NCBI RefSeq assembly: GCF_012516375.2
Contig: NZ_CP051204.2
Span: 2,914,001 to 2,978,000 of the forward strand
DNA length: 64,000 bases
Source of the DNA: Chitinophaga oryzae
Lineage (GTDB): Bacteria; Bacteroidota; Bacteroidia; Chitinophagales; Chitinophagaceae
Direction: 5' to 3'
The position numbers and the translations under genes are program-made. The notes under the pieces are model-generated. The model ran no database searches. It was given only the letters and a program-made list of their open reading frames with translations, and was not told the DNA's origin. Of this stretch, positions 24,393 through 57,844 are shown piece after piece. The stretch's first letter is position 1; every line of letters begins with the position of its first letter.

Positions 24393-24452
24393 GCAACTGC
24401 CGGCATGCGCTATTTCGGAAAATTGCACAAAGCGCCGGAGAATACTGAAAAG

Positions 24453-35579: not shown

Positions 35580-35808
35580 TTGTAAGCCTGCGGTAGGAGG
35601 GTACTGAAAAGTAGGGAAGTATGGATGAGGCTGTAGTGTAAGTCAATGGACGGCAGGCCGTAGCCACAAAGCACATTAGCGCAACCCCAAAAGCTGTCAT
35701 TTCTGCTACGCCGACAAAAAGTATGGTTTCGGCTAAACCAAACATGGATTTGGATAAATTTTTCTCCCTTTTCCAGCGGTACTTTGTGTCAATAAAAGCA
35801 ATCAACAC

Positions 35809-38830: not shown

Positions 38831-38852
38831 TCATAAGTGCTTGATTTTGCTC

Positions 38853-38899
38853 GTCGGGACGACTAGATTCGAACTCGCGACCCCTTGCACCCCATGCAA
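38853..38899 (-). repeat. Partial tRNA-Pro copy (left attachment site of segment A)
   Basis: 47 bp identical, apart from one base, to 57,770-57,816 (3' half of tRNA-Pro: T arm, acceptor 3' strand, variable loop and anticodon stem-loop). Even the sequence further left, AAGTGCTT at 38,835 and a 10-bp spacer, matches the right arm of the tRNA terminator. The 5' half of the tRNA is missing, so it cannot be functional. Confidence 0.9.
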
Positions 38900-38998
38900 A
38901 TGGATATAGAATATAAATAGCTCAAGTTGAATATATTTATATTGATAAATAGCTAATTAAATATTATAATTTATGTAATTTAAATCTGGCTAAATTAT

Positions 38999-39047
38999 TT
39001 TGGCCTATCTGTAGAGGATATTGGGAGGATACTGGGGCGATACTGAG
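38999..39047. repeat. Putative integrase arm-type repeats, left end of segment A
   Basis: TTTGGCCTATCT followed by three imperfect direct repeats: GAGGATATTGG (39,014), GAGGATACTGG (39,025) and GCGATACTGAG (39,037). The same 12-mer and related repeats lie at the same distance (~100 bp) inside the att copy of segment B at 54,492. The remaining 38,900-39,290 gap is AT-rich and has no gene I support. Confidence 0.5.
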
Positions 39048-39295
39048 AGTGATTATGGGGGATTTGGGTTGACGAGCAACGGTATTTATCAACCACAAAC
39101 CTTTTCTTACAATCATATAATGTAAAAAATCTATTTATTGAAAGAGTCGAAGCTTCGCTGATGCCTATATATCCTTTTGCTCACAGGTTAACCACTTACC
39201 GGGGAACTCAACAGTTCATTAATTGCGGATTATTGTATTACTCCGGAATTATAATTATCATTGCTGATCAATCAAGGTTTTTATTAGCGAAATCG

Positions 39296-39889
39296 ATGGC
39301 AATGGGTGGTTCCCCTAAAGACAATGGAAAGCTTTTAGCTGATATTGCTCGGCGAGATCAAAAAGCTTTCCGTATGATCTATGATACTTACGGCAAGAAG
39401 GTATACACCTACGCTTTACAGTTGCTGCACTCGGAGACAGAAGCGGAAGAAATGGTGCAGGATGTTTTTTTGAAGCTCTGGCTCATGGGCGATCGCATCC
39501 TTGAAATAGGAAACCTGGAATCCTATCTGCGGACAACAACGAAACACCGGTCTTTAAACGTGCTGCGCAGGCTCGTGCTCGAAGGGAGAATGGAAAAAGC
39601 CCTTGGCCAGGAATGGAAGGAGGAAAATACTGAGATGGAAGATGAAATTCTTATTCAGGATGTACGCGATATACTCAACCGTGCCATCGAATCTTTACCC
39701 AAACAACAGAAGGAGGCCTATATATTATGTCAACAACGGGGATTAAAATATGAGGAGGCCGCTCAACAACTGAACCTTTCCCCTTTGACTGTACAAACCC
39801 ATGTTAAACGTGCGCTGAGGTCCGTGCGCGCTTTCGTCAAAGCTAATACCGACATAGCGGCCATTTTGATTATATTAAAGCTGGTCTGA
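39296..39889 (+). CDS. ECF RNA polymerase sigma factor (segment A)
   Basis: 197 residues from the ATG at 39,296; the open frame extends further back to 39,161 but the added stretch is not sigma-like. Region 2 is DQKAFRMIYDTYGKKVYTYALQ to VQDVFLKLW; region 4 is LPKQQKEAYILCQQRGLKYEEAAQQLNLSPLTVQTHVKRAL. It is paired with the FecR-type anti-sigma factor gene 165 bp downstream and with an STN-bearing SusC, giving the classical cell-surface signalling set: ligand binding at SusC, FecR release, sigma activation of the operon. Confidence 0.9.
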   Translation: MAMGGSPKDNGKLLADIARRDQKAFRMIYDTYGKKVYTYALQLLHSETEAEEMVQDVFLKLWLMGDRILEIGNLESYLRTTTKHRSLNVLRRLVLEGRMEKALGQEWKEENTEMEDEILIQDVRDILNRAIESLPKQQKEAYILCQQRGLKYEEAAQQLNLSPLTVQTHVKRALRSVRAFVKANTDIAAILIILKLV

Positions 39890-40054
39890 TTATTTTCCGG
39901 GTTTATTCCTTCTCTGACGGGCTTTTATCCAGGCAAATGCGGCTTTTTAAACCGGCCATAAATATTTTAAAAAAAATCTTCGAACGCTGTACCTCGAACT
40001 TAGGTGCTCAGGTGTCTATATATGAAATAAGCCGCCAAACGGTTCTTCTATCAT

Positions 40055-41218
40055 ATGGATACCAATAACATTGACGCACTGTATAAGCGATATTTGGAAA
40101 AAAACATGTCTCCACAGGAGCTGGAGGAGTTTCGGCTGCTCATACTCGATACCGGTAGAGAAGATATGCTGGACGAGCGAATGGAAAGACATTGGAATGA
40201 ATTAACCGAGGATGCGATGGTTTTTTTGCCGGGAAATAAGGCGGATCAGCTATTCGGCAGGATTATCAGTCAGCCGCTGCCCAAGGCACGGAAGGTAAGG
40301 CTCTTGCCGCGCATCGCCATTGCCGCCGCCGCCGTCGGTATCATCGCTCTGGGCATTTCTCTGTTCTTTACTCCCCATAAATTTAAAGCTGCTATGGAGC
40401 CGGGAAATCAGACACTTGGCGCACCCGGCACGAACAGCGCGACGCTTACCCTTTCTAATGGCAGGGCCATCAGGCTTTCTGATGCGGCCAGTGGCAAACT
40501 GGCAGCGGATGCCGGTGTAGTGATCAGTAAGTCGCCCACAGGGCAGCTTATATATGAGATCAAAGGAAATTCCGGACACGGAGGGATCAATAAACTATCC
40601 ACCGCCAACGGCGAAACTTACCAGGTCCGCCTGCCGGATGGATCCGATGTCTGGCTGAATGCTGCTTCCAGTCTTAGCTACGCGCCAGACCTGTTACGTG
40701 ATGGGAAGCGCTCCGTTCAACTTGAAGGAGAAGCCTATTTCAGCATCACCAAAGACCAGGCGCACCCGTTCATTGTTCAAAGCAAAGATCAGCAGATTGA
40801 AGTGCTCGGCACCCAGTTCAATGTCAATGCGTATGCGGATGAGCCTGTGGTGGCCACGACACTACTTAAAGGGTCTGTGAGCATCACTGCAGGTGGGCAG
40901 AAGAAAAAGATCCATCCGGGTGAGCAGGCGCAATCAAGCGCCGGGCGGCTGGCCGTACAGAAAGTTGAAGTTGACAATATTATTGACTGGAAAAACGGTG
41001 ACTTTGCACTGAATCACGTCGAGTTTAAAACAGCCATGAGAAAGATTGCCAGATGGTACGATATGGAAGTTGTCTATGACCAGGGTGTTCCGGACAACCT
41101 GGAGTCTGGTGGCTGGATATCCAGACAACAGCCGCTATCAGCCGTGCTTAAGTCTATCGAAGCGTCAGGATTGGTAAAGTTCAGGGTTGAAGGCCGAAAA
41201 ATTTATGTAATGCAATAA
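40055..41218 (+). CDS. FecR family anti-sigma factor (segment A)
   Basis: 387 residues. Cytoplasmic N-terminal part (YLEKNMSPQELEEFRLL), one transmembrane helix (~90-110, PRIAIAAAAVGIIALGISLFF), and a periplasmic FecR domain (SDVWLNAASSLSYAPDL, then EGEAYFSITKDQAHPFIVQ and LGTQFNVNAYADEP). The DUF4974-type tail ends in IDWKNGDFALNHVEFKTAMRKIARWYDMEV. It would sense the STN domain of the SusC protein and release the upstream sigma factor. Confidence 0.92.
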   Translation: MDTNNIDALYKRYLEKNMSPQELEEFRLLILDTGREDMLDERMERHWNELTEDAMVFLPGNKADQLFGRIISQPLPKARKVRLLPRIAIAAAAVGIIALGISLFFTPHKFKAAMEPGNQTLGAPGTNSATLTLSNGRAIRLSDAASGKLAADAGVVISKSPTGQLIYEIKGNSGHGGINKLSTANGETYQVRLPDGSDVWLNAASSLSYAPDLLRDGKRSVQLEGEAYFSITKDQAHPFIVQSKDQQIEVLGTQFNVNAYADEPVVATTLLKGSVSITAGGQKKKIHPGEQAQSSAGRLAVQKVEVDNIIDWKNGDFALNHVEFKTAMRKIARWYDMEVVYDQGVPDNLESGGWISRQQPLSAVLKSIEASGLVKFRVEGRKIYVMQ

Positions 41219-41232
41219 TTTAATAGAATAAT

Positions 41233-42150
41233 ATGAAGCGACTTCTTTTTTTTATAATCATCTTTCTGGCGGCCATTTCAACCTTTGCTCAGGAAAATCA
41301 TCCGGTTTCCTGGAAATTCAGTAGTACAAAGATAGCGCCCTTAACTTATCAAATCAAATTGCACGCTTCTGTTCGGGAGCCCTATCACATTTACCCACAA
41401 GGTTCAGCAGGTGGTATGGGAATGCCTACAGAATTTTTGTTTGATGAGGATAACCATGTAGAATTTGTTGGAGAGATGGAAGAGAAAGGAGATGAGCAGA
41501 AAGGTACGGAGAGTCTGACTTATTACGCAAAAGGAGTAACCTTTACACAGATACTCAAACTGAAGTCTGAGAGGAAGACCACTTTAGCCTTTGCCATTAA
41601 ATATATGGCCTGTACCAATCAGATGTGTCTTCCGCCGTCAAAAAAGCACTTTACGTTGGAATTGGATGATCAGGGCAAAGAAGCTGTAATAGTTAAAAAA
41701 GAAGAGGCTGGACCATCTAAAGAGACGGTGGCTTTTGAATATGAGGATTTCAAGATGGCTGACATGGAAGGGAAAACGATAGCTTCTAAAAATATTACTT
41801 CAAAAAATAAGTATACGTTTATTGACTTTTGGGCAAGCTGGTGTGCTCCATGCAGGGCGCAAGGCCGGGAATTGATCCCGATATACAACAACTATAAATC
41901 TAAAGGTTTTGATGTAATTGCGATATCCCTGGATACTGACGTCAAAGCCTGGAAGAAAGCAACGCAGGCTGATGGCTATACCTGGACGAATTTGAGTGAT
42001 CTGAAGGGCTTTGAATCGCCGATCAGTAAAAAATATAACATTATTGCGATCCCCAGAAACCTATTGATTGATCGGAAGGGGAATATTATTGCCATGGACT
42101 TGCATGGTAAGGCGCTGGAAGCCAAACTCGCCGAATTATTTAAGATATAA
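41233..42150 (+). CDS. DsbD N-terminal-like/TlpA fusion thiol-disulfide protein
   Basis: 305 residues with a signal peptide (MKRLLFFIIIFLAAISTFAQ). Residues ~25-150 resemble the DsbD alpha domain, which in DsbD receives electrons from the membrane domain and passes them to partners; the motif is YMACTNQMCLPPSKKHFTLEL. Residues ~165-305 are a TlpA/thioredoxin domain with C204-AP-C207 (FIDFWASWCAPCRAQG) and a cis-Pro region (IIAIPRNLLIDRKG). There is no membrane domain between them, an unusual two-domain exported fusion. It lies 14 bp after FecR and before SusC, so is part of the induced set. Confidence 0.82.
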   Translation: MKRLLFFIIIFLAAISTFAQENHPVSWKFSSTKIAPLTYQIKLHASVREPYHIYPQGSAGGMGMPTEFLFDEDNHVEFVGEMEEKGDEQKGTESLTYYAKGVTFTQILKLKSERKTTLAFAIKYMACTNQMCLPPSKKHFTLELDDQGKEAVIVKKEEAGPSKETVAFEYEDFKMADMEGKTIASKNITSKNKYTFIDFWASWCAPCRAQGRELIPIYNNYKSKGFDVIAISLDTDVKAWKKATQADGYTWTNLSDLKGFESPISKKYNIIAIPRNLLIDRKGNIIAMDLHGKALEAKLAELFKI

Positions 42151-42227
42151 TATAGAGAATGCCTAAGCCTGACTATAAACATAAACCAACCATACATGCA
42201 GGGAAATTACCATAAACCCTAAAAAGA

Positions 42228-42253
42228 ACCAGTCCCACTTAGTTGGGACTGGT
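42228..42253 (+). other. Hairpin between the TlpA fusion and susC
   Basis: 10-bp perfect stem (ACCAGTCCCA / TGGGACTGGT) with a 6-nt loop and no T run. It is either a weak terminator or an mRNA processing/attenuation element ahead of the SusC gene. Confidence 0.55.
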
Positions 42254-42338
42254 ATAGCCTGGAATCAACTAAAAATGTAACTACAGCAGCCTGGTCCGTG
42301 GAAAGTCAAGGCACGCTGTGATCAACCAAACTAAACGA

Positions 42339-45300
42339 ATGTACAAAAATTCTAACAGCTACCTGGGAGCACGCAATCCTCTCAGGTTTAAAATCATGTG
42401 GATAATGCGATTTACCACCGTCATACTAATAGCATCTATTATGCAGGTCAGTGCTTCCACATTCGGCCAGCAAATCACCATCGACCGGAAAAATGCTTCT
42501 TTAGAGTCGCTGATAAAAGAAATACGGGCGCAAAGCAGCTATGATTTCTTTTATGACGGGAAAATAATTCCTAAAAACAAGCTGGTTGACATCAGCTTGA
42601 AAAATGCTGACATCAACGAAGCACTCAAAAAGATTTTGGCTGGCTCTTCACTCAGCTATACCATAGAAGGTAAAATCGTGACCATCCGGAAAAGTATGCC
42701 TTCAATTATTGATAAGGTCACTACTCTGTTTGCTAAGATAGATATAAAGGGAATAGTGGCTGATGAGCAAGGCAAACCTTTACCGGGAGCCTCTGTGTTT
42801 ATCAAGGATTCCGAGATCAGAACGACCACGAATAAAGATGGTGAATTTTTCTTGCAAAATGTGGAAGACAGTGCCACTGTACTGATTGGTTATGTTGGCT
42901 ACCAGCCGGTCCAGCGTACCGCTTCACGCGATATGGGAACAATTCAAATGACGCCTTCAACCAGCAACCTGAAGGAAGTAGAAATTAAATTCAATACGGG
43001 TTACCAGGAAATATCCCGGGAGCGCGCCGCTGGATCGTTTGCGAAGCCAGATCTTAAAGTGATGCTTAACCGGACCAGTACTCCAAATATTTTAACGCGT
43101 TTGGAAGGATTGGTTCCGGGCTTGACTACCCGTGGCCCGGGCGGTTTACTTGTACGCGGCCAGAGCTCTCTGCCAACCGGCGACAACCCCTTAACTACTA
43201 CCAGACCCTTAATTGTAATTGATGGGATTGAATTTGAAGGAAACATTGAACAGGTGAACCAGCAGGATGTTGAAGATATCACCATCTTGAAGGATGCAAC
43301 TTCAGCCTCCATCTGGGGTGCAAAAGCAGCAAACGGCGTCATCGTAATTACCACAAAAAAAGGAAAAGCAGGTGATCGGCTGACGTTCAATTACGACGGC
43401 TATTACGCCTTTCAGGGGCGTCCGGACCTTGATTATGTAAAGCGAATGAATTCGCAGCAGTTTATCGCCCTCTCCAGGGAACTGTTTCCACAATTTTTTC
43501 CATCTTTCCCGGACTGGGAAACTGTTAACACTACCTTTGGAAACCTGCCTCATCTGCAGATACAATATGACCGCGCCCGAAACCTGATTACCCAGGCGCA
43601 GGCGGATTTTAAACTGGACAGTCTGGCCAAACTCTCCAATACCGGTCAGATTGCAGATTTTTTTGTTAGAAACGCAGGCACGATAAACCAGACATTATCG
43701 GTTTCCGGAGGAGGAAAGGTGCATACCTTTTATGGTTCATTAAATCACATTGGTACGCAGAGCAATACACCGGGAGAACAATACAATCAGTACAAAATCA
43801 ATCTGAACAACAACCTGATCATCAATAAGAGAATAACGGCTTTCATCAATGCAGACCTGACCAACACAGTGACCAGAAACAGTAATACCTATAAGGCCGA
43901 CCGTAACATTGTTCCTTATCAAATGTTCAAGGATGCAAATGGCAATCCTCTGAACATTAATTATTTAGGCAACTATAAAAATATTCCCCTTCCGGATTCC
44001 ATCAGGGCCCTCTACCAGTCACTAAGCCGCATCAACCTCGACTATAATCCAGTGCTTGAACAGGACAGGGCTTACAGTAGCAGCAATGGGATTTTTGCCA
44101 GACTGGTCGGGGGAGTCAAGGTAAACCTTTTGAAGGGACTGGATTTCCAGGGTACTTATGGTTATAACCTGGGCAACACCAATACACGGACAGTGAGGCT
44201 GCAAGACAATTATGAAATGAGGACCCAGGTGGTGGAATTTACGCAAGCAGAAGACGCTACAGCCACTCCCGTTTACAACCTTCCACAAATAGGCGGCAGC
44301 TTGATTACCACGACCAGCTCCACCAGGGCCTGGACAATAAGAAACCAATTGGTGTTTAACCGCGATTGGAAGCAGCATCAGTTCACCCTCATGGCAGGAC
44401 AACAAGCCACCAGCAGCACGCCGGTTACTACAACAGCAACTTATTATGGCTGGGAAGATCAGCTGCAAACTTCAAGACCAGTAGATCTGGCACGTTTAGG
44501 TGAAGGAATTAATGGGGTCAGCGGACTGGCAACATTACCCAACAACGTTGGTGGTTCAGAGGGACGCATTGCCAGGACCACTTCCTATTTTGCTAACCTG
44601 GGTTATACTTTCGATAGAAAATATACTTTGAACGCCAGTTGGAGAATCGATGAGAGTAATTTGTTCGGGCGGGATAAATCTGCACAGAACAGGCCAGTTT
44701 ACAGCATTGGCGGTAAATGGGCTTTAGGTAGTGAAGGATTTATGGAAACGGCGACCTGGCTCAGTCAACTGGATGTTCGTATGACCTATGGAATTACCGG
44801 TAATGCCCCTTTTGTGGGAGCGGCAGCGTCTTACGATATCCTGACTGCTCAAAGTGCTCCTAATTATGTGACGGGAGCAGGCTATTTATTAAGTTCCCCT
44901 CGCAACACCAGACTGACCTGGGAAGGCACAAAGGTTTACAATGTTGGTGTGGACTTTTCCATATTTGAAGATCGGTTGAGCGGATCAATTGATGGATATA
45001 TTAAGAAAACAGAAGACCTGATTGGTCAACTGGCCACTTCGCCGCTGTCTGGTTATGACAATGTCATTGGCAATTACGGTAATTTAGATAATAAAGGGAT
45101 AGACATTGGATTGAATTCCATAAACATCAGCACTAGTGATTTTAGCTGGACTACAGGGCTGACCTTTAGCTACAATAAAAACAAATTGACGCTTCTGCGT
45201 CAGAATCCGCCGGTTACAGGAGATGAACTGACTTTGCGGGAAAGGATGGTAGGTTATCCTTTATATACACTCTTCATTTACAATTATGGAGGCTTAAATG

Positions 45301-45893
45301 CTAATGGGGATCCGCAAGTTAGACTTGCAGATGGTACAGTAACCTCCGAAATCAATGTAACTAAACCAGAAGATATTCTTTACGCAGGTACTACCCAACC
45401 CGTCTGGTCAGGTGGGCTTCAGAATAATTTTCGGTATAAATCCTTCAATCTGAGTGCAAGCATAATTTACAGCGGAGGTTATACCATCACCAACAACAGC
45501 AATCCCGCAACAAATGAATCCATTCTCGGTACCAATGGGCTGCCATTGGAATTTTTGAACCGCTGGAAGGTCCCGGGTGATGAGCAAAGAACCGATATAC
45601 CAAGATATGTACCTTCGGGTGACCTGGCAAGTGCCCGCAATATCGGTTACTTTAATCAGTCTCAGCGATACGCCTTAAACGGAGCATATATCAAACTCCG
45701 CGACATCACTTTGTCCTATAGCCTTCCACAAACGTTGGTAAAATCAATTCTTGCACAGGGTGTTTCCTTCCGGTTCCAGGTGAATAATTTATTGTTATGG
45801 ACAGCCAATAAAAACGGCATAGATCCGGAATTTTTAGGAACGACACGGGACGCTCAGGGAACAATCAGTCTGGGTGCACACATTAGTTTTTAA
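42339..45893 (+). CDS. SusC/RagA family TonB-linked receptor with STN domain (segment A)
   Basis: 1,184 residues from the ATG at 42,339 (a GTG at 42,318 is in frame). Long signal region (IMWIMRFTTVILIASIMQVSAS). The STN domain follows (residues ~50-115: ASLESLIKEIRAQSSYDFFYDGK, SLKNADINEALKKILAGSSLSYTI), then CarboxypepD_reg (IKGIVADEQGKPLPGASVFIKD), then the plug (ILKDATSASIWGAKAANGVIVI). The barrel ends in a C-terminal Phe. The STN domain couples ligand capture to FecR/sigma. The SusD gene begins 19 bp after its stop. Confidence 0.93.
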   Translation: MYKNSNSYLGARNPLRFKIMWIMRFTTVILIASIMQVSASTFGQQITIDRKNASLESLIKEIRAQSSYDFFYDGKIIPKNKLVDISLKNADINEALKKILAGSSLSYTIEGKIVTIRKSMPSIIDKVTTLFAKIDIKGIVADEQGKPLPGASVFIKDSEIRTTTNKDGEFFLQNVEDSATVLIGYVGYQPVQRTASRDMGTIQMTPSTSNLKEVEIKFNTGYQEISRERAAGSFAKPDLKVMLNRTSTPNILTRLEGLVPGLTTRGPGGLLVRGQSSLPTGDNPLTTTRPLIVIDGIEFEGNIEQVNQQDVEDITILKDATSASIWGAKAANGVIVITTKKGKAGDRLTFNYDGYYAFQGRPDLDYVKRMNSQQFIALSRELFPQFFPSFPDWETVNTTFGNLPHLQIQYDRARNLITQAQADFKLDSLAKLSNTGQIADFFVRNAGTINQTLSVSGGGKVHTFYGSLNHIGTQSNTPGEQYNQYKINLNNNLIINKRITAFINADLTNTVTRNSNTYKADRNIVPYQMFKDANGNPLNINYLGNYKNIPLPDSIRALYQSLSRINLDYNPVLEQDRAYSSSNGIFARLVGGVKVNLLKGLDFQGTYGYNLGNTNTRTVRLQDNYEMRTQVVEFTQAEDATATPVYNLPQIGGSLITTTSSTRAWTIRNQLVFNRDWKQHQFTLMAGQQATSSTPVTTTATYYGWEDQLQTSRPVDLARLGEGINGVSGLATLPNNVGGSEGRIARTTSYFANLGYTFDRKYTLNASWRIDESNLFGRDKSAQNRPVYSIGGKWALGSEGFMETATWLSQLDVRMTYGITGNAPFVGAAASYDILTAQSAPNYVTGAGYLLSSPRNTRLTWEGTKVYNVGVDFSIFEDRLSGSIDGYIKKTEDLIGQLATSPLSGYDNVIGNYGNLDNKGIDIGLNSINISTSDFSWTTGLTFSYNKNKLTLLRQNPPVTGDELTLRERMVGYPLYTLFIYNYGGLNANGDPQVRLADGTVTSEINVTKPEDILYAGTTQPVWSGGLQNNFRYKSFNLSASIIYSGGYTITNNSNPATNESILGTNGLPLEFLNRWKVPGDEQRTDIPRYVPSGDLASARNIGYFNQSQRYALNGAYIKLRDITLSYSLPQTLVKSILAQGVSFRFQVNNLLLWTANKNGIDPEFLGTTRDAQGTISLGAHISF

Positions 45894-45912
45894 TTATCAA
45901 ATAAAGTCAGAT

Positions 45913-47400: not shown

Positions 47401-47417
47401 CATAAAATAACAATAAA

Positions 47418-47447
47418 CAAATTGCTGCCGACATAGGCAGCAATTTG
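47418..47447 (+). other. Hairpin between susD and the next TlpA gene
   Basis: 12-bp perfect stem (CAAATTGCTGCC and its complement), 6-nt loop, no T run; a likely RNA-processing or partial terminator element lowering expression of distal genes relative to susCD. Confidence 0.6.
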
Positions 47448-47462
47448 AAATTCAACAGCGAT

Positions 47463-48548: not shown

Positions 48549-48557
48549 ATATGAAAC

Positions 48558-48605
48558 CATCATAGGCATACCAGCTTACAAACGGCAATGAATATGCCTA
48601 TGATG
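48558..48605 (+). other. Long-loop inverted repeat between TlpA genes
   Basis: 13-bp perfect stem (CATCATAGGCATA and complement) with a 22-nt loop, in the 88-bp gap between the second and third TlpA genes; no T run. Confidence 0.55.
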
Positions 48606-48636
48606 TCTTCATAATAATTTAAAAAAATATATACTG

Positions 48637-49902: not shown

Positions 49903-49912
49903 TCGAAAGGAT

Positions 49913-51124
49913 ATGAGAATATTAGTTGTAATGATGATACTGATGTCCACGTATGTATACGGGCAGAAGTCGCAAAAGGAGAATGCTAAAAAATTTAATG
50001 CCCTTGTAAACGTTGAGGACCAGGAACGGTTCTATAATGAACTCCGCTCAAAATATCCTGCTGACCCGGCAAAGCCAGCGTCGTATGGTGAATATCGTGC
50101 GCAGTTGGCAGTCGACTGGCTGAGGAAAGGGAATATAGATAAATATCATTTCTACAAGAACACCAATCCCAAATTTACGAGCATTCAATTGTTTGAACTT
50201 TCTAACCTGCTTGAATCCTGGGTCGACGATGATCAGCATATTGAATGGGTACAGCAAATCTCAGAACAGGTTTTGGGCGAAATCGCGCTCAAAAGACACG
50301 ATGATAACTTTGACCGACAGGAGATTTTGCTTGAAGTGAATGCCCTGGCCAATGCCAAACTTGGCAACTTGGCTATCGCGATGGAGAATATCAAAAAGTC
50401 GGATAAAAATGCCATGTTCAGGAAAATGCCTTACTTCAGAAATTCCAATGCCAATTACCTGAACCGTCTGAGTTTAATCTTAATGGCAGCTGGCCAACAT
50501 CAACAGGCATTTGATACCTTGTCTAACGCGGTGCGTACGGCCGTCTCCACGCCAAAAACAATTACCAGTTTAAAGTTGGCCTACCAGAAGGTAAAAGGCA
50601 GCACAGCCGGGATGGACAAATTTATCAGTTCACTACAGGAGGAAGCCTATCAAAAAATTGCAAAGGAAGTCGCCGAAGCCTGGATGGCCGATACTAAACC
50701 TGTACCGGATGTCTCTTTAACAGATTTGAATGGCAAGACCATTAAGTTAACTGATTACAAGGGTAAAATTGTGGTAATTGATTTTTGGAGTACAGCTTGC
50801 AAACCATGCGTTGCCGCATTTCCGGCATTCGAGCGTGTGATCGACTTGTATGGTGAGGGACCTTTCCAGTTGTTTGTGATCAATGAGGGGGAAAGCCCGG
50901 AGATCGTGAAACCCTTTATGGAAAAGAAAGGGTACAAACTGGATGTGTTATTTGATCAGGATGAAACAATTTTCAAAGCGCTGGGCGCATTGGGTACTCC
51001 TCAGAAATTTATCATTGATGCGAAGGGAAACATCACTCAAACAGGAATAGGTTATGCCGGTTCGGATGACAAGGAATTTTATAAGTTGAAAGCTATGGTG
51101 GAACTTGCCAAAGCAAAATCTTGA
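49913..51124 (+). CDS. Exported TlpA-like protein with helical N-terminal region (paralogue 2)
   Basis: 403 residues; short hydrophobic signal (MRILVVMMILMSTYVYGQ). Same layout as the previous gene: helical first 270 residues, then a thioredoxin domain with C296-KP-C299 (VIDFWSTACKPCVAAFPAF) and a GTPQKFIIDAKGN cis-Pro region. It differs in its CKPC active site, so the redox potential or partner probably differs. It starts 10 bp after its paralogue, indicating a tandem duplication followed by divergence. Confidence 0.87.
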   Translation: MRILVVMMILMSTYVYGQKSQKENAKKFNALVNVEDQERFYNELRSKYPADPAKPASYGEYRAQLAVDWLRKGNIDKYHFYKNTNPKFTSIQLFELSNLLESWVDDDQHIEWVQQISEQVLGEIALKRHDDNFDRQEILLEVNALANAKLGNLAIAMENIKKSDKNAMFRKMPYFRNSNANYLNRLSLILMAAGQHQQAFDTLSNAVRTAVSTPKTITSLKLAYQKVKGSTAGMDKFISSLQEEAYQKIAKEVAEAWMADTKPVPDVSLTDLNGKTIKLTDYKGKIVVIDFWSTACKPCVAAFPAFERVIDLYGEGPFQLFVINEGESPEIVKPFMEKKGYKLDVLFDQDETIFKALGALGTPQKFIIDAKGNITQTGIGYAGSDDKEFYKLKAMVELAKAKS

Positions 51125-51127
51125 TGG

Positions 51128-52807
51128 ATGATGTTAAAGGGTTTACAACTGAGTTTAATCAGCCTGTTTTGTTTTGTTCTCACAAGCTGTAGCGCGCAAC
51201 CTAATCCAGCAGCTGGAAACATTGAAAAGCTCATAGCGAATGTGGTTGACAAGGCAATGGCAAGCAGCGTTTACATCATCGAATGGGACACGTTAAAAAA
51301 TCAGGTTCAAAAGGACATTGATGAGACAAGTGGCTTCACAGGAGTAGTGGTTTCTGCTGAAGGGCACATTCTGACTGTATCACATGCCGCAATGCCCAAC
51401 CAAATTTATAGGGTATCATTTCCGGATGGGAGCAAACATATCGCCGTTGGCCTGGGCCGGATCGGATTACAGGATGGGGAAAAAGATTATGATATGGCAA
51501 TGGTCAAAATCCTGAAGCCTGGAAAATGGCCTTTCTCCAGGATGGCGCCCAGCCAGGAGTTAAAAATAAACCAGCCGGTAGTGAGCATCTCCTATCCAGG
51601 TGCGTTTTTTAAGCAAACGCCAAATGTCCGCTTCGGGCGAATCTCTGATATAGATATGAGCGACGGTTTTATTGAGTCTTCAGCTAAAATGGAACCTGGT
51701 GATTCCGGCGGTCCTTTGTTTGATGCGCAAGGACGGGTGGTGGGGGTACACAGCTGGATCAAGGAAAAGGAGGATCAAAATTATGATGTTCCGGCTGATC
51801 ATTTTCTTAAATACTGGACAGCACTGAATGTTGCCAAAGATTATACAGAATTTCCTGCCGCCGACGAGTTTCCAGCCGCAGCGTCTTCCATACTGATACC
51901 AACCGTTCCTTCATTGGAAGAGGTGGCCGGAATTTCAGTGCAAAACCGAAAAAGCGTGGTGATGCTGAGGAGTAGCCGTGGGACGCAACAATTATCGATT
52001 CAGGGGACCCTGCTTGGTTTCAACGGGGCTACCTATATTGTCAGTAAGAGTTCTATGGTTGGAAACAACCCCAGGGTTAAAACAGGCAATAGCACCGTGG
52101 TCGCTCAGATTCTAAAAAGAGATAAAGAGAATGACCTTGTACTGTTAAGTGTATCCGGAAAGGTGGGAGGTGGGATCAGGTTAGCAACTGACGCTAAAGA
52201 TCCGGTCCTGAAGCAAGGCGATCTGGGTAAGATACTCCTCTCGGCTATAGCTAACGATTCAATTAAAATTGGGGTGCTCAGCGCCACCTATGTTGATGTG
52301 CCTTTAAATGCGAGTCAGGGTTATCTGGGTGCGCGTGCAGCTTATCAGGATGGAAAAATAACCATCAGGCGAATTGACAAAAATAGTGCAGGCGGGGCTT
52401 CATTGCTGAGGCAAAAGGACCAGGTTATTAAAATCAATGGTGTTGCGGTGAATACGGCGGCAGATTATGATCGGGAATTTGCTAAGTATCTGGCGGCCGA
52501 TTCAATTTCTATGAACATCGTCAGAAAAGGTAAGCCCATGCAGTTGAGCGTTTACCTTGAAGGTCAGCCGACAGAGAGCCATGCTTCTTACGCATATCCA
52601 GGCGGAAGGAGTGCCCGTTCAGACGGTTTCAGGAATGTATTGGTCCATGATGCAGCCATTAAAGCAACTGAATGCGGGAGTCCGGTATTTGACAGCGAAG
52701 GCAATTTCTATGGTGTAAATATTGCCCGGCGAAGTCGCACTTCAACGCTGCTAATGCCCGTAGCCACACTCTCACAATTTTTAAAAACATTAACAAATAG
52801 CAAATGA
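51128..52807 (+). CDS. Two-domain trypsin-like/PDZ exported lipoprotein
   Basis: 559 residues; lipobox LTSC at C21 indicates a lipoprotein. First trypsin-like domain (residues ~70-240): H86 (ILTVSHAA), D122 (KDYDMAMV), S193 (EPGDSGGPLFD); all three catalytic residues present. A PDZ domain follows at about residues 395-465 (GYLGARAAYQDGKITIRRIDKNSAGGASLLRQKDQVIKING). A second chymotrypsin-fold copy spans the remaining sequence, its nucleophile region being ATECGSPVFDSEG at ~513-525 in place of GDSGGP, so it is probably inactive. An HtrA-like periplasmic protease architecture. 3 bp after the upstream gene, and overlapping the next by 4 bp. Confidence 0.85.
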   Translation: MMLKGLQLSLISLFCFVLTSCSAQPNPAAGNIEKLIANVVDKAMASSVYIIEWDTLKNQVQKDIDETSGFTGVVVSAEGHILTVSHAAMPNQIYRVSFPDGSKHIAVGLGRIGLQDGEKDYDMAMVKILKPGKWPFSRMAPSQELKINQPVVSISYPGAFFKQTPNVRFGRISDIDMSDGFIESSAKMEPGDSGGPLFDAQGRVVGVHSWIKEKEDQNYDVPADHFLKYWTALNVAKDYTEFPAADEFPAAASSILIPTVPSLEEVAGISVQNRKSVVMLRSSRGTQQLSIQGTLLGFNGATYIVSKSSMVGNNPRVKTGNSTVVAQILKRDKENDLVLLSVSGKVGGGIRLATDAKDPVLKQGDLGKILLSAIANDSIKIGVLSATYVDVPLNASQGYLGARAAYQDGKITIRRIDKNSAGGASLLRQKDQVIKINGVAVNTAADYDREFAKYLAADSISMNIVRKGKPMQLSVYLEGQPTESHASYAYPGGRSARSDGFRNVLVHDAAIKATECGSPVFDSEGNFYGVNIARRSRTSTLLMPVATLSQFLKTLTNSK

Positions 52808-54213
52808 AAAAAATAGTTTTTACTGTACTGATGCTCAGCTGCTTGAGCACAGTGGCACAACAAAGCAAAAAAGATACAAATTCTGCATTAGCCTCATTAA
52901 AGCATACAAAAGATAAGACGCTCCTTAACCAGAAGATAAAAGCGTTGGAAAATGGTTCCGATCAGGACTTGTGGACATTGATCCAGTATTATGATAAAAA
53001 TGAAGTTAAAAAAGATGCGGTCACCAGGATGCTGCTTCAAAAGTATCCCCAAAGTAAAAACGCCCAAATGGCGAGAATCACTTCCTTTCTTAAGTTCAAA
53101 GGAGTGGAGGACATAGAAGCTCATCTGCAAAACATGATCAAAGATTACCCTAATGTCAATTTAGATTTGGAGAAAAGCTTTGTGGCCAATATGTACGCTA
53201 ATGAGATGAATACTGCGAAAATACTGCAATATCTGAACTCCATTGACGATCCGGGATTTCGGTTACAGGCCTTACTAGCGGCCACTGAGGAAATGGCTGC
53301 AATAAATAATACAAAGGCCCTGGAGTTTGCCTCCGGCGAATTGGAAAGTGCCAAAAAAATGAAAGATATGACAGCCTTAAATGGGCCGCGGAAAATAGAT
53401 CCCAAATCTGCGTATGATAATTTTATTAACCTCTATGGTAAGCTACTCTTTAAAGCCGGAAAAAATGAAGAAGCCTTCCGTTATACTGCGGAAGCTTATC
53501 ATAACATTAAGAAAAAGGACGAGGAACTGATTGAAAACTATGCTTTTCTGTCCAGCCTGAAAGGTGACTACGTACAGGCTTTACCCATATTGGCAAAAGC
53601 GGTAGAGGGAGGGAAGTTCGAGCAGAAGTACATCGACCAGGTCAAAAAAGGTTATACAAAGCTAAACCCCGATAAGGATGCGGATGCCTACGTCGAGGGG
53701 TTGAAAAATACATTTATCAAAAAAATCAGGGCAAATATTTCTTCAATGATGGTTCATGAAGCGGCACCTGATTTTACGGTAACAGATGTGAACGGGAAAA
53801 AAGTTTCGCTGGCGGATTTTAAAGGCAAAACCATTGTGTTGGATTTTTGGGCAACCTGGTGTGGTCCATGTGTGGAGTCATTCCCGGCTATGCAGATGGC
53901 TGCAAACCGCTATATTAATGACCCGGATGTAAAATTTCTTTTCATTTATACCTGGAATAACGTACCGGATTTGTTGAATGACGGCAAAAAATTTCTGGCC
54001 AGTCGCAACTATACCTTCGATTTGTATTTGGATCCAAGAAATCCAGACACCAAGCAGAGTGCAGCTGCAGATGCTTTCAAAATTGATGGGATCCCAGCCA
54101 AATTTATCATTGATGGTAAGGGAAGGATCAGGTTTAAAGTATCAGGATTTGACGGGAAGGCTGAGGTCGCGGCAGAAGAAGTTGTACAGATGGTTGAAAT
54201 GGCCCGCAAATAG
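52804..54213 (+). CDS. Exported TlpA-like protein with TPR-like N-terminal region
   Basis: 469 residues; signal peptide MKKIVFTVLMLSCLSTVAQ. Residues ~30-290 are TPR/helical repeats (AKILQYLNSIDDPGFRLQALLAA; YALENY-type stretches). The thioredoxin domain has C353-GP-C356 (VLDFWATWCGPCVESFPAM) and a FKIDGIPAKFIIDGKGR cis-Pro region; this is the only one with the classical CGPC. The start overlaps the stop of the protease gene (ATGA), so the two are translationally coupled. Last gene of segment A. Confidence 0.88.
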   Translation: MKKIVFTVLMLSCLSTVAQQSKKDTNSALASLKHTKDKTLLNQKIKALENGSDQDLWTLIQYYDKNEVKKDAVTRMLLQKYPQSKNAQMARITSFLKFKGVEDIEAHLQNMIKDYPNVNLDLEKSFVANMYANEMNTAKILQYLNSIDDPGFRLQALLAATEEMAAINNTKALEFASGELESAKKMKDMTALNGPRKIDPKSAYDNFINLYGKLLFKAGKNEEAFRYTAEAYHNIKKKDEELIENYAFLSSLKGDYVQALPILAKAVEGGKFEQKYIDQVKKGYTKLNPDKDADAYVEGLKNTFIKKIRANISSMMVHEAAPDFTVTDVNGKKVSLADFKGKTIVLDFWATWCGPCVESFPAMQMAANRYINDPDVKFLFIYTWNNVPDLLNDGKKFLASRNYTFDLYLDPRNPDTKQSAAADAFKIDGIPAKFIIDGKGRIRFKVSGFDGKAEVAAEEVVQMVEMARK

Positions 54214-54288
54214 CTATGACCAAACTTAATACAGTCGGCGAAAAAGAGATAGCTCATCCGCTCCGGAAAAAGCGCCATAAAATGAGCA

Positions 54289-54300
54289 GGAGGGTACTAA
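54289..54300. repeat. GGAGGGTACTAA motif, right end of segment A
   Basis: Immediately precedes the tRNA-Pro terminator copy; matches the GGAGGGTACTG repeats found at the ends of both segments (54,506 and 57,699) and at 35,596. Confidence 0.55.
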
Positions 54301-54304
54301 AAAC

Positions 54305-54340
54305 AAAAAAGCACTTACAATTATATGTAAGTGCTTTTTT
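54305..54340 (-). terminator. Copy of the tRNA-Pro terminator at the segment A/B junction
   Basis: AAAAAAGCACTTAC stem with complement, 8-nt loop. Nearly identical to the terminator of the intact tRNA at 57,732 and in the same relation to the tRNA copy, so it was carried along in the duplicated attachment sequence. Confidence 0.85.
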
Positions 54341-54345
54341 GTGAA

Positions 54346-54389
54346 GTCGGGACGACTAGATTCGAACTAGCGACCCTTGCACCCCATGC
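54346..54389 (-). repeat. Partial tRNA-Pro copy (junction of segments A and B)
   Basis: The 3' half of tRNA-Pro (same as 57,770-57,813) with one C missing in the run CGACCCTTGC; the 5' half is absent. Serves as right end of segment A and left end of segment B. Confidence 0.88.
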
Positions 54390-54491
54390 GAACTGTAATG
54401 AATTTAAAATAAGCCAATTTAGCAATAATATTCTTATATTATAGCTGTTTACATAATATTTAATTTGTTAATTTAAGTTGTTTTAAACTAC

Positions 54492-54531
54492 TTTGGCCTA
54501 TCTTTGGAGGGTACTGAGAGGGTACTGGAGG
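54492..54531. repeat. Putative integrase arm-type repeats, left end of segment B
   Basis: TTTGGCCTATCT (54,492-54,503) followed by two GGAGGGTACTG-type repeats (54,506-54,531). The layout matches the left end of segment A at 38,999. Confidence 0.55.
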
Positions 54532-54660
54532 AATGACAAAAGGATAGAGTAGTATAGCCTGGATAGTCTAACTGTGATTGATTGGATCTAAAATTATCTT
54601 GAATATAGATAATAATAGCGTTTGCTTAACGGAAACAACAGACTGCGGCTAGAATGTTAT

Positions 54661-54984
54661 TTAAGCAATTCGACAGACGGTCCAACATCTGCCTGTGTAC
54701 TTAGTAGCTCCAGGACCTGGGCGGGTTATGCAACCGGCCTTTGGATCATCATAGGTAGGGTCACCATTGGATGGGCGACATGCTGCTGTTACCCCGTCAG
54801 CTGCCGCAGTTTGCTGTTGATTTTCAAGCTGGCAATGGTTTCTCTTTACCTATAAACAACTTTCTGCCGAATTCCTCAGCATAATTGGCTTAATCTCTGA
54901 TTTATTTAAAGTCTTTGCAATTAGATCAATTATTATCAGTAGACTGGCATTTACTAATTTCGCATCCGGAATAATAAAGCGCAT
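54661..54984 (-). pseudogene. Possible decayed Cys-rich natural-product precursor peptide
   Basis: One continuous minus-strand frame of 107 codons interrupted by a single TAG (54,850-54,852). Before it: a leader-like helix with LIAKTLNKSEIKPIM, reminiscent of the SE(M/L)K..I(G)G leaders of Bacteroidota precursor peptides, though the GG is absent. After it: a Cys-rich tail with AACRPSNGDPTYDDPKAGC and GRCWTVCRIA before the stop. The assigned ATG (54,984) overlaps the nadC start on the other strand and may not be the true start. No modifying enzymes are present. The identification is tentative. Confidence 0.3.
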
Positions 54985-55822
54985 GACAACACAAGAATTC
55001 ATTGCCGCAGCATTGCTGGAAGATGTGGGCAGCGGCGATTACTCTACGCTGGCATCCATCCCGGCCGATGCAAAAGGCAAAGCTGCACTCAAAATAAAGG
55101 AAAAGGGCATACTGGCAGGTATGCAGTTGGCACAGGAAATTTTCCATCACCTGGAAGAAAGCGCAAAATTTACCCTTTTTAAAAAGGACGGCGATGCGGT
55201 GGACAACGGCGAAACCGCATTTACCGTTGAATCGAGTGTGCACACCATACTAAAGGCCGAACGCCTGGTGCTGAATTGCATGCAGCGCATGAGCGGTATT
55301 GCCACCCTTACCAATAGGTATGCTGATAAGATAAATGGCTACAAAACCAAAATACTCGATACCCGCAAAACTACCCCGCTGTTCCGCGAATACGAGAAGC
55401 AGGCGGTGCGCATTGGTGGTGGTTACAACCTCCGCATGGGACTGTACGATATGATCATGCTGAAAGACAATCATATCGATTTCTGCGGAGGCATTGAGCC
55501 AGCCATACAAAAAACCAACGAGTACCTGGCGGCCAACAATCTCGACCTGAAAATAGAAGTGGAAACCCGCAACCTGGATGATGTGCGCCGTGTGCTTGCC
55601 GTAGGCAATGTACACCGCATCATGCTCGATAACTACTCGCCCGAGATGGTAGAAGAAGCAATTAAGCTGATCAGCGGCAGGTACGAAACAGAAGCATCGG
55701 GCGGCATCAATCTCGACAATATTATTTCATACGCCCGTACTGGTGTAGACTATGTATCTTGCGGCGCTATTATAAATCATGCCGTGAGCATGGACCTCAG
55801 TTTAAAAGCTCAATTGGTATGA
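54983..55822 (+). CDS. nadC: Nicotinate-nucleotide diphosphorylase (carboxylating), NadC
   Basis: 279 residues, full length. Quinolinate phosphoribosyltransferase: ALLEDVGSGDYST N-terminus, the catalytic core with LNCMQRMSGIATLTNRY and the substrate-binding DTRKTTPLFREYEKQAVRIGGGYNLRMGL stretch, the ML-K-DNHI Lys-Asp motif, and the EVETRNLDD and MLDNYSPE metal/phosphate-site motifs. It catalyses quinolinate to nicotinate mononucleotide in de novo NAD synthesis. It lies inside segment B, away from nadA/nadB, and could be an extra copy. No adjacent NAD gene. Confidence 0.93.
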   Translation: MTTQEFIAAALLEDVGSGDYSTLASIPADAKGKAALKIKEKGILAGMQLAQEIFHHLEESAKFTLFKKDGDAVDNGETAFTVESSVHTILKAERLVLNCMQRMSGIATLTNRYADKINGYKTKILDTRKTTPLFREYEKQAVRIGGGYNLRMGLYDMIMLKDNHIDFCGGIEPAIQKTNEYLAANNLDLKIEVETRNLDDVRRVLAVGNVHRIMLDNYSPEMVEEAIKLISGRYETEASGGINLDNIISYARTGVDYVSCGAIINHAVSMDLSLKAQLV

Positions 55823-55924
55823 TGAAGAAGCTCCTTGTATTCACCATCAACCCAAAATTGGGCATACACAGGCAGAAGTGGTAATTATACCCTTTAATTG
55901 TCGCATCATTGTAATATAAATAGC

Positions 55925-57427
55925 ATGGTAAAAAAATGTTTTCTTGGAGGAAATTCATCCATTATGACTAGCATGTTGAAGGCTGGCCTTATAGCATTGC
56001 TGATTTTCTCTTGTAAGGTTAGTGCTGTGGGGCAGGTAGACAGTATTGATTCTTTTCTTCAAAACCAGATGCAGGAGCGCAGAATTCCCGGATTACAACT
56101 AGCGATTGTAAAACATGGAAAAATTATTAAAACGGGTAATTATGGACTGGCAAATCTGCAGGACTCAATCCCGGTAAGCGACAAAACTGTTTTTACTATT
56201 AATTCAATCACGAAGGCATTTACGGGTGTTGCTATTATCCAATTGCTGGAAGCCGGGAAACTAAAATTGGATGCACCCATTTCTGAATACCTTACTGACC
56301 TGCCTGACACATGGAAGTCATTAACGGTTCAGCAACTCTTGTCGCATATTTCGGGCATCCCGGATATTGTAAATGAAGAAGAATCCGTTTTAATAAGCGG
56401 CGATCCGGAAGAAGCCTGGAATGCCATACTTCGAATGCCCAATGAGTTTAAGGCTGGAGAGAAATTTAGCTATAACCAAACCAATTATTTACTTCTCGGC
56501 CGCATTATCGATAAATTAAGCGGTATGTCGTTCCAGGAGTTCATTACCAAAGAACAATTGGAAAAAGTAGGTATGCCGAAGACCATACAATCAGGTTTTG
56601 GTGCTACAAAGAACATTGTAGCCCATGCAGCTTGTAGTTACCAATATCAAAAAGGTCAACTCAGGAATATGTTCTTTTCGTTTCCGCCTTTCTTGCAAAC
56701 TGCTGCCGGAATGAGCTCAACAGCAAAAGAACTGGCAGATTGGATCATTGCTTTACAAAGTATGCAGTTATTAAAAAAAACGGAAAGCCTTCGGACACTC
56801 TGGACACCTGCAGTACTGAATACAGGCGAAACAGCTGGTTTTAGCAGCTTGCTTAATGGATATGCCGCAGGCTGGCCGGTTGTTAAAAGAACAGATCATC
56901 CGGCTCTGGCACCCGTTGGTGGTAATCGTTCGGCTGTATTTGTATACCCCAATGATAATCTTTCCATTATCGTGCTTACAAATCTATCTGGGGCGACGCC
57001 GGATGTATTCATTGACGAACTCGCCGGATTGTTTATTCCGGATATGAAAGAAGCGAATGGTTTTGGCCTTTCAGCATCCCTAAGATCGTTAAAAGTTACC
57101 TTGGATAAGGTGGGATACAAAAATGCCATAGAAGAAGTAAAGAAACTGAAGAAAACAAAGAGTGGCTTTACTGCAATGGAGAAAGAAATAAATAGCTGGG
57201 GATATAAGTTGATCTCACAAAAAAGGATCGCTGAGGCGCTGGAAATATTTAAGCTGAATGTTTATTTGTATCCCGCAAGCGCCAATGCATTTGATAGCCT
57301 GGGCGAGATCTGTGAAGAGCTGGGCGATTCTCAACTCGCTATTAAAAATTATGAACAGTCTCTGAAACTGGATCCTCAAAATAAGAATGCAGACCAACAT
57401 ATAAAAAAGCTCAGATCTGGTGAATAA
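55925..57427 (+). CDS. Secreted serine hydrolase (beta-lactamase family) with C-terminal TPRs (segment B)
   Basis: 500 residues from the ATG at 55,925; 55,964 is an equally possible start giving a shorter signal peptide (MLKAGLIALLIFSC). Beta-lactamase-like catalytic motif: SITK (VFTINSITKAFTGVAI), YNQ (KFSYNQTNYLLLG). The C-terminal ~110 residues contain TPR-like helices (FDSLGEICEELGDSQLAIKNYEQSLKLDPQN). Architecture parallels the gene at 4,934 but sequence is divergent. Exported. It follows nadC with 100 bp between them. Confidence 0.85.
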   Translation: MVKKCFLGGNSSIMTSMLKAGLIALLIFSCKVSAVGQVDSIDSFLQNQMQERRIPGLQLAIVKHGKIIKTGNYGLANLQDSIPVSDKTVFTINSITKAFTGVAIIQLLEAGKLKLDAPISEYLTDLPDTWKSLTVQQLLSHISGIPDIVNEEESVLISGDPEEAWNAILRMPNEFKAGEKFSYNQTNYLLLGRIIDKLSGMSFQEFITKEQLEKVGMPKTIQSGFGATKNIVAHAACSYQYQKGQLRNMFFSFPPFLQTAAGMSSTAKELADWIIALQSMQLLKKTESLRTLWTPAVLNTGETAGFSSLLNGYAAGWPVVKRTDHPALAPVGGNRSAVFVYPNDNLSIIVLTNLSGATPDVFIDELAGLFIPDMKEANGFGLSASLRSLKVTLDKVGYKNAIEEVKKLKKTKSGFTAMEKEINSWGYKLISQKRIAEALEIFKLNVYLYPASANAFDSLGEICEELGDSQLAIKNYEQSLKLDPQNKNADQHIKKLRSGE

Positions 57428-57698
57428 GCCATTTGTCCAGCCGCCCTTTCAACAAAGCACCTAACTCAGCGACAAGCCGCAGATCGCCTAGTGCCTGTTG
57501 ATAGCTCAGAATTAATTGGTGAATGACGTTTAGGGGTTTCTCATATCGCCTTCCGCAAATTGAAGCGCTGAGTAGTATCCAGATAAAAGATGTTACGGAA
57601 ATATATACACTGATTGGATTGCTTCACATGTAGGTCTGCCAATGATTTCCCATCCAATTATACTGAAAACTACTCTCATAAGGCTTCCAAAATGGGCT

Positions 57699-57720
57699 GG
57701 AGGTTACTGGGAGGGTACTG
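57699..57720. repeat. GGAGGGTACTG-type repeats, right end of segment B
   Basis: GGAGGTTACTG and GGAGGGTACTG in tandem (22 bp), directly before the tRNA terminator. The 57,428-57,698 stretch has no gene I can support. Confidence 0.55.
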
Positions 57721-57731
57721 AAAACAAAAAA

Positions 57732-57759
57732 AAGCACTTACAATAATATGTAAGTGCTT
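57732..57759 (-). terminator. Terminator of tRNA-Pro
   Basis: 10-bp stem (AAGCACTTAC / GTAAGTGCTT), 8-nt loop; on the minus strand it is followed by a run of eight T. It starts 11 bp beyond the tRNA 3' end. Confidence 0.85.
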
Positions 57760-57770
57760 CATTTGTATAG

Positions 57771-57844
57771 TCGGGACGACTAGATTCGAACTAGCGACCC
57801 CTTGCACCCCATGCAAGTGCGCTACCGGGCTGCGCTACGTCCCG
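57771..57844 (-). tRNA. tRNA-Pro (anticodon GGG)
   Basis: 74 nt on the minus strand. Acceptor stem CGGGACG / CGTCCCG with discriminator A; the first pair C1-G72 is typical of bacterial tRNA-Pro. The anticodon arm is CTTGC-ATGGGGT-GCAAG with U33 and anticodon GGG; the T arm carries TTCGAAT. CCA is not encoded. It is intact and lies at the right border of two segments that begin with partial copies of its 3' half, so it is an integration site whose 3' end was restored by each insertion. Confidence 0.93.

Follow-up and report, generated by a model that had tools for sequence, protein, structure and literature searches.

Elements that have lost their integration and transfer genes and have kept their attachment (att) sites are termed cis-mobilizable elements (CIMEs) in the excerpted text of PMC5704250, and in the tandems that they form in Streptococcus salivarius the more decayed unit is the one lying further from the target, according to the available part of PMC7563491. 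Here, we analyzed a comparable arrangement at the tRNA-Pro(GGG) gene of Chitinophaga oryzae, within a stretch of 64,000 nucleotides (the window) that represents bases 2914001-2978000 of a single-contig 8.36-Mb genome. Two segments, A and B, are stacked at this gene, and we consider it probable that both are non-autonomous CIME-like segments, that their ends are those of one family of integrative and conjugative elements (ICEs), and that their likely integrase belongs to the clade formed by P0001 and P0002, the integrases of two such ICEs. The two segments are bounded by the tRNA gene and by copies of its 3' half:

57770..57844, minus strand: intact tRNA-Pro(GGG); attR, the tRNA-side end of segment B, is formed by its 3' half and terminator
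54346..54389, minus strand: tRNA-Pro 3'-half copy at the A/B junction, one base (C) missing
38853..38899, minus strand: left att of segment A, a copy of the tRNA-Pro 3' half with one mismatch
38900..54345, no strand: segment A, 15.5 kb, GC 0.443, no integrase, ten genes, partly decayed ends
54390..57769, no strand: segment B, 3.4 kb, GC 0.424, no integrase, two genes, complete ends on both sides

ARAGORN found tRNA-Pro(GGG) as the only tRNA of the window. A preliminary description of the locus had reported an intact tRNA-Pro accompanied by two same-orientation copies of its 3' half, the first with one mismatch, the second with one missing base, and both with all or part of the terminator; ARAGORN and our repeat searches agreed with each of these points, the only correction being that the tRNA starts at 57770 and not at 57771. 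The terminator hairpin is whole near 54304-54342 and 57727-57759, and its 3' half alone is found at about 38834-38852. The 22 nucleotides of the tRNA 3' end occur exactly three times (38853, 54346, and 57770), always in the same sense, compared to a mean of 0.00 in shuffled sequences (n = 100), which rules out a chance origin of the repeats. A 30-nucleotide version, searched in the whole genome with up to 3 mismatches, returned the same three places only, while a degenerate version added a single one (2519138, 2 mismatches), presumably another tRNA. The identity of the copies stops in the anticodon arm, at CACCCCATGC. Both segments have a lower GC content than their flanks and follow each other in tandem; of the "nested or tandem insertions" proposed earlier, the tandem order thus stands and nesting is rejected.

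The ends of A and B share one terminal cassette, built around an 11-bp arm-like repeat, GGAGGKTACTG, present in tandem:

38834..38852, no strand: half terminator (3' half), like that of an ICE right end (TAAGTGCTTGATTTTGCTC), adjoining A on the left
39012..39045, plus strand: A left arm repeats, three degenerate copies, with TTTGGCCTATCT ahead at 38999-39010
54289..54299, plus strand: A right arm, single copy, where C. eiseniae keeps two 11-bp copies
54304..54342, no strand: terminator hairpin of the A right end
54506..54527, plus strand: B left tandem arm repeat GGAGGGTACTGAGAGGGTACTG, with TTTGGCCTATCT ahead at 54492-54503
57699..57720, plus strand: B right tandem arm repeat GGAGGTTACTGGGAGGGTACTG, two copies
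57727..57759, no strand: terminator hairpin of the B right end, which now serves the tRNA

At the left ends, the tRNA copy is followed by approximately 115 bp of AT-rich sequence, by TTTGGCCTATCT, and by the tandem 11-bp repeats, the copies of A being degenerate. At the right ends, the order is repeat (one copy in A, two in B), hairpin terminator, and tRNA end. The arm repeats sit 128 to 129 bp inside the left att core in A and B, and at the right end of B they lie 103 bp ahead of the core. An alignment of A with B extends over about 130 bp at the left ends and 57 bp at the right ends, and the two ends of B share a 23-nucleotide stretch with 2 mismatches that was equalled in none of 100 shuffles. 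Within this genome, the double arm is found at this locus only. Since C. eiseniae has two arm copies where C. oryzae has one, A most likely lost one 11-bp right arm in C. oryzae. The half terminator on the left of A, which resembles that of an ICE, suggests the truncated right end of a still older element at that place.

We then compared these ends to other genomes. The double-arm pattern gave 6 matches in 5 of the 79 genomes of the genus (C. oryzae included) and none for the reversed control. Five of the six matches lie within approximately 130 bp of a tRNA-Pro copy or fragment, two of them in C. oryzae and the others in G003, C. eiseniae (G027), and G084. The tRNA-Pro element of G084, which has the same right flank as our locus, is an ICE with integrase P0001, with TraM and TraN above the NCBIfam cut-offs and TraJ just under it (285 of 290 bits); in G003, the left end is followed by a MobC gene. 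A looser exact arm pattern, run against genome_contigs (84,980 species), returned five stretches, namely, one in C. eiseniae, two ends in Mucilaginibacter sp. dw_454, one in a Bacteroidetes metagenome-assembled genome (MAG), and an archaeal one taken as a chance match, with no tRNA in its 8 kb. Both Mucilaginibacter ends and the MAG end are located at tRNA-Ala(GGC) or its fragment, and the core TTGCA..CCATGC is common to tRNA-Pro and tRNA-Ala. The two Mucilaginibacter ends bound a 93-kb ICE at tRNA-Ala with integrase P0002, and they share an exact 25-mer equalled in 0 of 100 shuffles; the tra row of this ICE is collinear with that of G084, and it harbors an 80% match to the MobC of G003. Viral contigs contained neither this arm type nor the one of a C. 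eiseniae segment described below.

The spacing of the cassette is also conserved. On the left, core and arm are separated by 128, 129, 130, and 128 bp in four elements (three genomes, two genera) and by 116 bp at a further site, in G009, and on the right by 103, 101, 101, 109, and 125 bp in five elements. When end pieces devoid of their att sequence were scored pairwise against the best of 30 shuffles, all 6 pairs of left cassettes (A, B, G003, and Mucilaginibacter) and all 15 pairs of right cassettes (A, B, C. eiseniae A, G084, Mucilaginibacter, and MAG) beat every shuffle, two of them (A-G003 left and A-Mucilaginibacter right) by 1 point only. Pairs involving the differently armed C. eiseniae segment did so in 0 of 4 cases on the left and in 1 of 6 on the right, by 1 point. 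Strong similarity to the ICE ends does not extend beyond the arms, the spacer, and the terminator. In a few cases (Mucilaginibacter and MAG), the right-end alignment continues 60 to 70 bp inward at low similarity.

The two integrases P0001 and P0002 are 66 to 68% identical to each other, while no other of 40 compared integrases exceeds 28% identity to either over at least 200 amino acids. Relatives of P0001 were found at an E value of ≤1e-40 in 3 of the 79 genus genomes (G084 itself, G082 at 38%, and G034 at 40%) and at ≤1e-120 in 1 of 395 class genomes (G318, 49%), with at most 4 candidates scored per genome among the matches listed. Plasmid records gave 156 matches to P0001, all below 60% and, among the matches listed, at no more than 28% identity. 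As the preliminary description had noticed, an integrase is absent from the locus: the C. oryzae genome encodes eight PF00589 proteins, none of them in the window and the nearest about 313 kb past its end. These are six tyrosine recombinases and two XerC/D-like proteins. A resident helper was rejected, since none of the eight closely resembles the P0001 clade: no match was obtained at an E value of ≤1e-40, and blastp aligned only stretches of less than 200 amino acids at ≤30% identity. This also makes it unlikely that one of the resident integrases currently mobilizes B in trans as an active satellite; the ends of B are indeed complete on both sides, and six tyrosine recombinases besides the XerC/D-like pair are at hand, but none is close to P0001, and the double arm occurs nowhere else in the genome.

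According to the explanation that we favor, A and B would have arrived by successive site-specific integrations at the 3' end of tRNA-Pro(GGG), catalyzed by a tyrosine integrase of the P0001/P0002 clade from an ICE that this genome has lost or never contained. Their ends would correspond to the cassette of that ICE family, which comprises an att core within the anticodon arm of the tRNA, 11-bp arms in tandem on both sides, and a terminator. Each integration would restore the tRNA 3' half and its terminator, so that the newest segment (B) adjoins the tRNA and the older one (A) lies further out. A would thus have come first and B later in C. oryzae, with another segment, carrying genes like ietA and ietS, entering independently in C. 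eiseniae. Binding of the arms by this integrase is a prediction from sequence, and, should an ICE of the family enter, B might be mobilized once more.

As for the origin of the segments, an ICE may have lost its core, or cargo may have been captured between the ends of an ICE. The first of these origins overlaps with decay alone, i.e., with A and B being the remains of two successive ICEs whose cores were deleted and which did not move afterward, a real possibility that we nevertheless incline against. CIMEs are described as products of such decay in the excerpted text of PMC5704250, A appears to have lost an arm and was probably already present in the common ancestor with C. eiseniae (91 to 94% nucleotide identity, as in the flanks), and most other integrase-less segments at this tRNA are devoid of matching arms. 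On the other hand, no ICE gene was recognized in either segment, strong similarity to ICE ends does not go beyond the end cassette, and B, like the C. eiseniae segment that takes its place, is a compact unit of two genes with a complete arm pair at each end. The alternatives proposed earlier, satellites mobilized in trans or decayed islands, are partly resolved: the segments share ICE-family ends and the likely integrase is absent, A being old and short of one arm and B having complete ends.

Several observations weigh against CIME-like segments with ends and integrase of a single ICE family. No ICE gene was recognized in A or B, so that nothing inside them points directly to an ICE shortened by deletion. 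Segment A on its own fails the shared-arm test, its arm match being reached in 13 of 100 shuffles. The sixth double-arm match of the genus, on G009 contig 49, is not at a tRNA, and the left att of the G084 ICE itself was not found. The locus of the 49% integrase relative in G318 showed no arm pair within about 20 kb (40 kb examined). Because G003, C. eiseniae, and G009 bear arms without a P0001-type integrase at an E value of ≤1e-40, arms and integrase coincide in two elements only. Finally, the left end of A has no att copy in the 40 kb examined of C. eiseniae, where the shared cargo begins at 39146; the left boundary proposed earlier for A, 38853, therefore holds in C. oryzae and was not confirmed in its relative.

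Other occurrences of the arm repeat were also considered. The possibility that GGAGGGTACTG is merely a common motif of the genus was rejected, since 822 kb, made up of the window and the retrieved sequences, contained 25 matches at ≤1 mismatch versus 5, 8, and 14 for three scrambled controls. Exact matches numbered 7 in the same 822 kb, 5 of them at att sites and the others at 35596 and on G009 contig 49. On the latter (L038:1294-1313), the arm pair comes 116 bp after a 12-nucleotide tRNA-Ala-like core situated just past the end of a 597-amino-acid open reading frame, acyl-CoA-dehydrogenase-like by eye, and this site is perhaps a secondary-site insertion of the same arm-bearing family. The lone exact repeat at 35596-35606, GGAGGGTACTGAAAA, is right-end-like and has neither terminator nor att; it might represent the right end, now split, of an older element, and three genes (two NAD-binding and one AraC) separate it from the half terminator at 38834. 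At 24437-24483, GGAGAATACTGAAAA is followed by a GCACTTAC/GTAAGTGC hairpin that is the same as in ICE right ends, with no att; a diverged version exists in C. eiseniae (L093), adjoining an insert of approximately 1.1 kb that is absent from C. oryzae.

We compared the locus with the same region in relatives. C. eiseniae shares window positions 19.5 to 30.96 kb and 39.15 to 54.39 kb at 91 to 94% nucleotide identity, like the right flank, and since the cargo of A is thus shared at backbone identity, it most likely predates the split of the two species, judging from these sequences. At this place, C. eiseniae does not contain window positions 30.96 to 39.15 kb, including the left att of A. At the position of B, it harbors a different segment of 4.25 kb, bounded by a tRNA fragment and without a detected integrase, in which two genes match the IetA and IetS defense models. 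This segment has its own tandem arms at both ends (22 nucleotides, 1 mismatch, 0 of 100 shuffles), AGTTTTAGTYTGGTTTTAGTTT, which were not found in any other of the 155 loci examined. In G011, both flanks are represented, the left one by its gene (window 19780-20481), and 1.9 kb separate the end of this gene from the tRNA; a 0.8-kb segment lies there, bounded by a degenerate tRNA fragment on one side and by the tRNA on the other. Window positions 20.5 to 57.7 kb are absent from the 20 kb examined, leaving a near-empty site. The left border of the hotspot (20.5 kb) was searched for an att remnant, and none was found. The gene content of related genomes thus varies as the preliminary description anticipated, and its view of site-specific insertions at the tRNA is supported. 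That the tRNA fragments are chance or segmental duplications among vertically inherited genes is accordingly hardly credible: the A cargo is shared with C. eiseniae at backbone identity, but the tRNA copies are unmatched in shuffles, arms and terminators stand at the copies, the GC content is low, the G011 site is near-empty, and the C. eiseniae insert is different.

A Pfam scan covered the ten main genes of A and both genes of B, small open reading frames lying outside it, and recognized no integration, conjugation, or mobilization genes among them:

39161..39889, plus strand: A, sigma-70 family sigma factor (extracytoplasmic function type)
40055..41218, plus strand: A, FecR anti-sigma factor
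41233..42150, plus strand: A, thioredoxin-like protein
42318..45893, plus strand: A, SusC-like TonB-dependent receptor
45874..47400, plus strand: A, SusD-like lipoprotein
47445-48548, 48637-49902, and 49913-51124, plus strand: A, three AhpC-TSA/redoxin-like genes
51128..52807, plus strand: A, trypsin/PDZ protease
52804..54213, plus strand: A, fourth AhpC-TSA/redoxin-like protein
54983..55822, plus strand: B, second nadC (quinolinate phosphoribosyltransferase)
55898..57427, plus strand: B, serine hydrolase of the beta-lactamase/esterase family (PF00144) with tetratricopeptide repeats

We read the cargo of A as a putative regulated outer membrane import locus with redox enzymes. In the MAG mentioned above (L056:21-4047), where the same arms and terminator stand at tRNA-Ala, the adjoining genes are sigma-, FecR-, and SusC-like by eye, i.e., an A-like cargo. 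In B, NadC is 69% identical to the other copy of this genome and 90% to one in G084, and the hydrolase is 89% identical to one in G004. No resistance is claimed for the hydrolase because PF00144 also includes esterases and peptidases; PADLOC, in a scan that did not include nadC, gave no match to it. To trace a possible common origin of the two B genes, we located relatives of them at five loci (nadC being sought in 6 genomes), and at three of these they lie within 0.6 kb of another tRNA, on its 3' side, namely, a G084 nadC by tRNA-Pro(TGG), a G004 hydrolase by tRNA-Leu(CAG), and a G085 hydrolase by tRNA-Lys(CTT) (L147:6716-7915, L148:5988-8117, and L151:6821-8090). None of these three showed an att duplication, and those in G077 and G029 had no tRNA within the 15 kb examined. 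Outside the segments, positions 31680-35516 encode a large HYR/PKD-repeat protein with internal repeats of 477 bp (33207-34274) that are 82 to 95% alike; it was not found in the 40 kb examined of C. eiseniae.

We surveyed tRNA-Pro segments across the genus, seeking att copies at ≤3 mismatches. According to the tRNA-Pro listing of the 79 genomes, a lower bound outside which the G084 and G085 rows fall, at least 16 genomes carry copies in the same sense, two or more of them, within 60 kb; the fragment of G003 lies 276 kb away. Eleven fragment-to-tRNA segments were measured and scanned with a profile of our own built from 40 integrase sequences (one present twice), a scan that may miss odd integrases and serine recombinases. 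It detected an integrase in 3 segments (G039, G072, and G080) and none in the other 8 (A, B, and those of C. eiseniae, G011, G028, G041, G046, and G074). Among the latter, B and the C. eiseniae segment have matching arms at both ends (0 of 100 shuffles each), while the numbers of shuffles reaching the arm match were 13 for A, 33 for G011, 68 for G028, 93 for G041, 99 for G046, and 64 for G074. For the integrase-bearing segments, they were 0 (G072), 2 (G080), and 6 (G039, weaker). Most integrase-less segments thus look decayed, since they have no matching arms, and B and the IetAS-like segment alone have complete ends. As to cargo, G028 carries a PDC-M66A/B candidate defense pair, G041 a SMEK-domain protein with a match to a defense model over its first 173 residues, G046 a KAP NTPase that is weakly QatA-like, and G011 a DUF7151 protein. 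A more far-reaching idea, which we put forward tentatively and think doubtful, is that tRNA-Pro(GGG) in Chitinophaga acts as a cassette slot for one- or two-gene units framed by att, terminator, and ICE-type arms and exchanged by integrases acting in trans. The units of such a slot might, with the same reserve, be defense-like pairs (IetAS and PDC-M66) and metabolic pairs (nadC plus hydrolase), in a strategy resembling that of miniature inverted-repeat transposable elements (MITEs) or integrons.

Two further patterns were seen in the survey. G025 contig 21 (157581-158175) contains a 113-bp tandem array with six matches resembling tRNA-Pro. In G009, G005, G021, G048, and G051 (L040, L041, L109-L110, L114, and L115), the tRNA-Pro(GGG)-type gene is duplicated as a whole, the copies being about 7 to 18 kb apart, a pattern unlike that of the 3'-fragment segments.

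CIME-like elements are a known kind, and what is new here is that the likely source ICE family and its integrase can be named. The helper of integrase-less islands often goes unnamed, and in this case the arms and their spacing lead to a single ICE family and a single integrase clade; as the same tRNA slot holds small defense-like systems in relatives, this bears on their spread in Bacteroidota. In the literature, of which our coverage was partial, nothing was found on ICEs and integrases at tRNA genes in Chitinophaga, papers returned for genomic islands in that genus had titles on unrelated topics, and CIMEs in connection with Bacteroidetes led to the general review and to a paper on Pseudomonas toxin-antitoxin systems, which is weak evidence of novelty. 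With regard to element classes, A and B keep attL and attR (B complete, A minus one right arm), have no integrase, conjugation, or mobilization genes among the Pfam-scanned genes, with no PF00589 in the window, and match an ICE family by their end cassettes, no internal ICE gene being recognized. Neither has the integrase of its own that would define an integrative and mobilizable element or a satellite, nor the integrase and conjugation module of an ICE.

The closest described systems are the CIMEs of Streptococcus, which, in the available parts of PMC5704250 and PMC7563491, likewise have att copies at the 3' end of the target gene, no integrase or transfer genes, and tandem accretion; the more decayed segment A is further from the tRNA, as is the case in S. 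salivarius (PMC7563491). Unlike those CIMEs, the present segments sit at tRNA-Pro in Chitinophaga and have arm-type repeats and a likely cognate integrase that can be named, and they may or may not descend from an ICE by deletion. The Dehalococcoides islands at ssrA, as far as the excerpt of PMC3146451 goes, are also tandem at an RNA gene, and 15 of them without an integration module were called possible CIMEs; they differ in using a serine recombinase and ssrA rather than a tyrosine integrase and tRNA-Pro/tRNA-Ala. Clusters of attC sites lacking integron integrases (CALIN arrays) and MITEs, in the portion of PMC11389934 available, are non-autonomous as well, keep their recombination sites, and need a helper enzyme, although their recombination systems are different. 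The Bacteroidetes-type TraM/TraN conjugative elements of G084 and Mucilaginibacter sp. dw_454 have the same arms, nearly the same spacing, and a similar terminator, but they hold an integrase and tra genes, whereas A and B have none.

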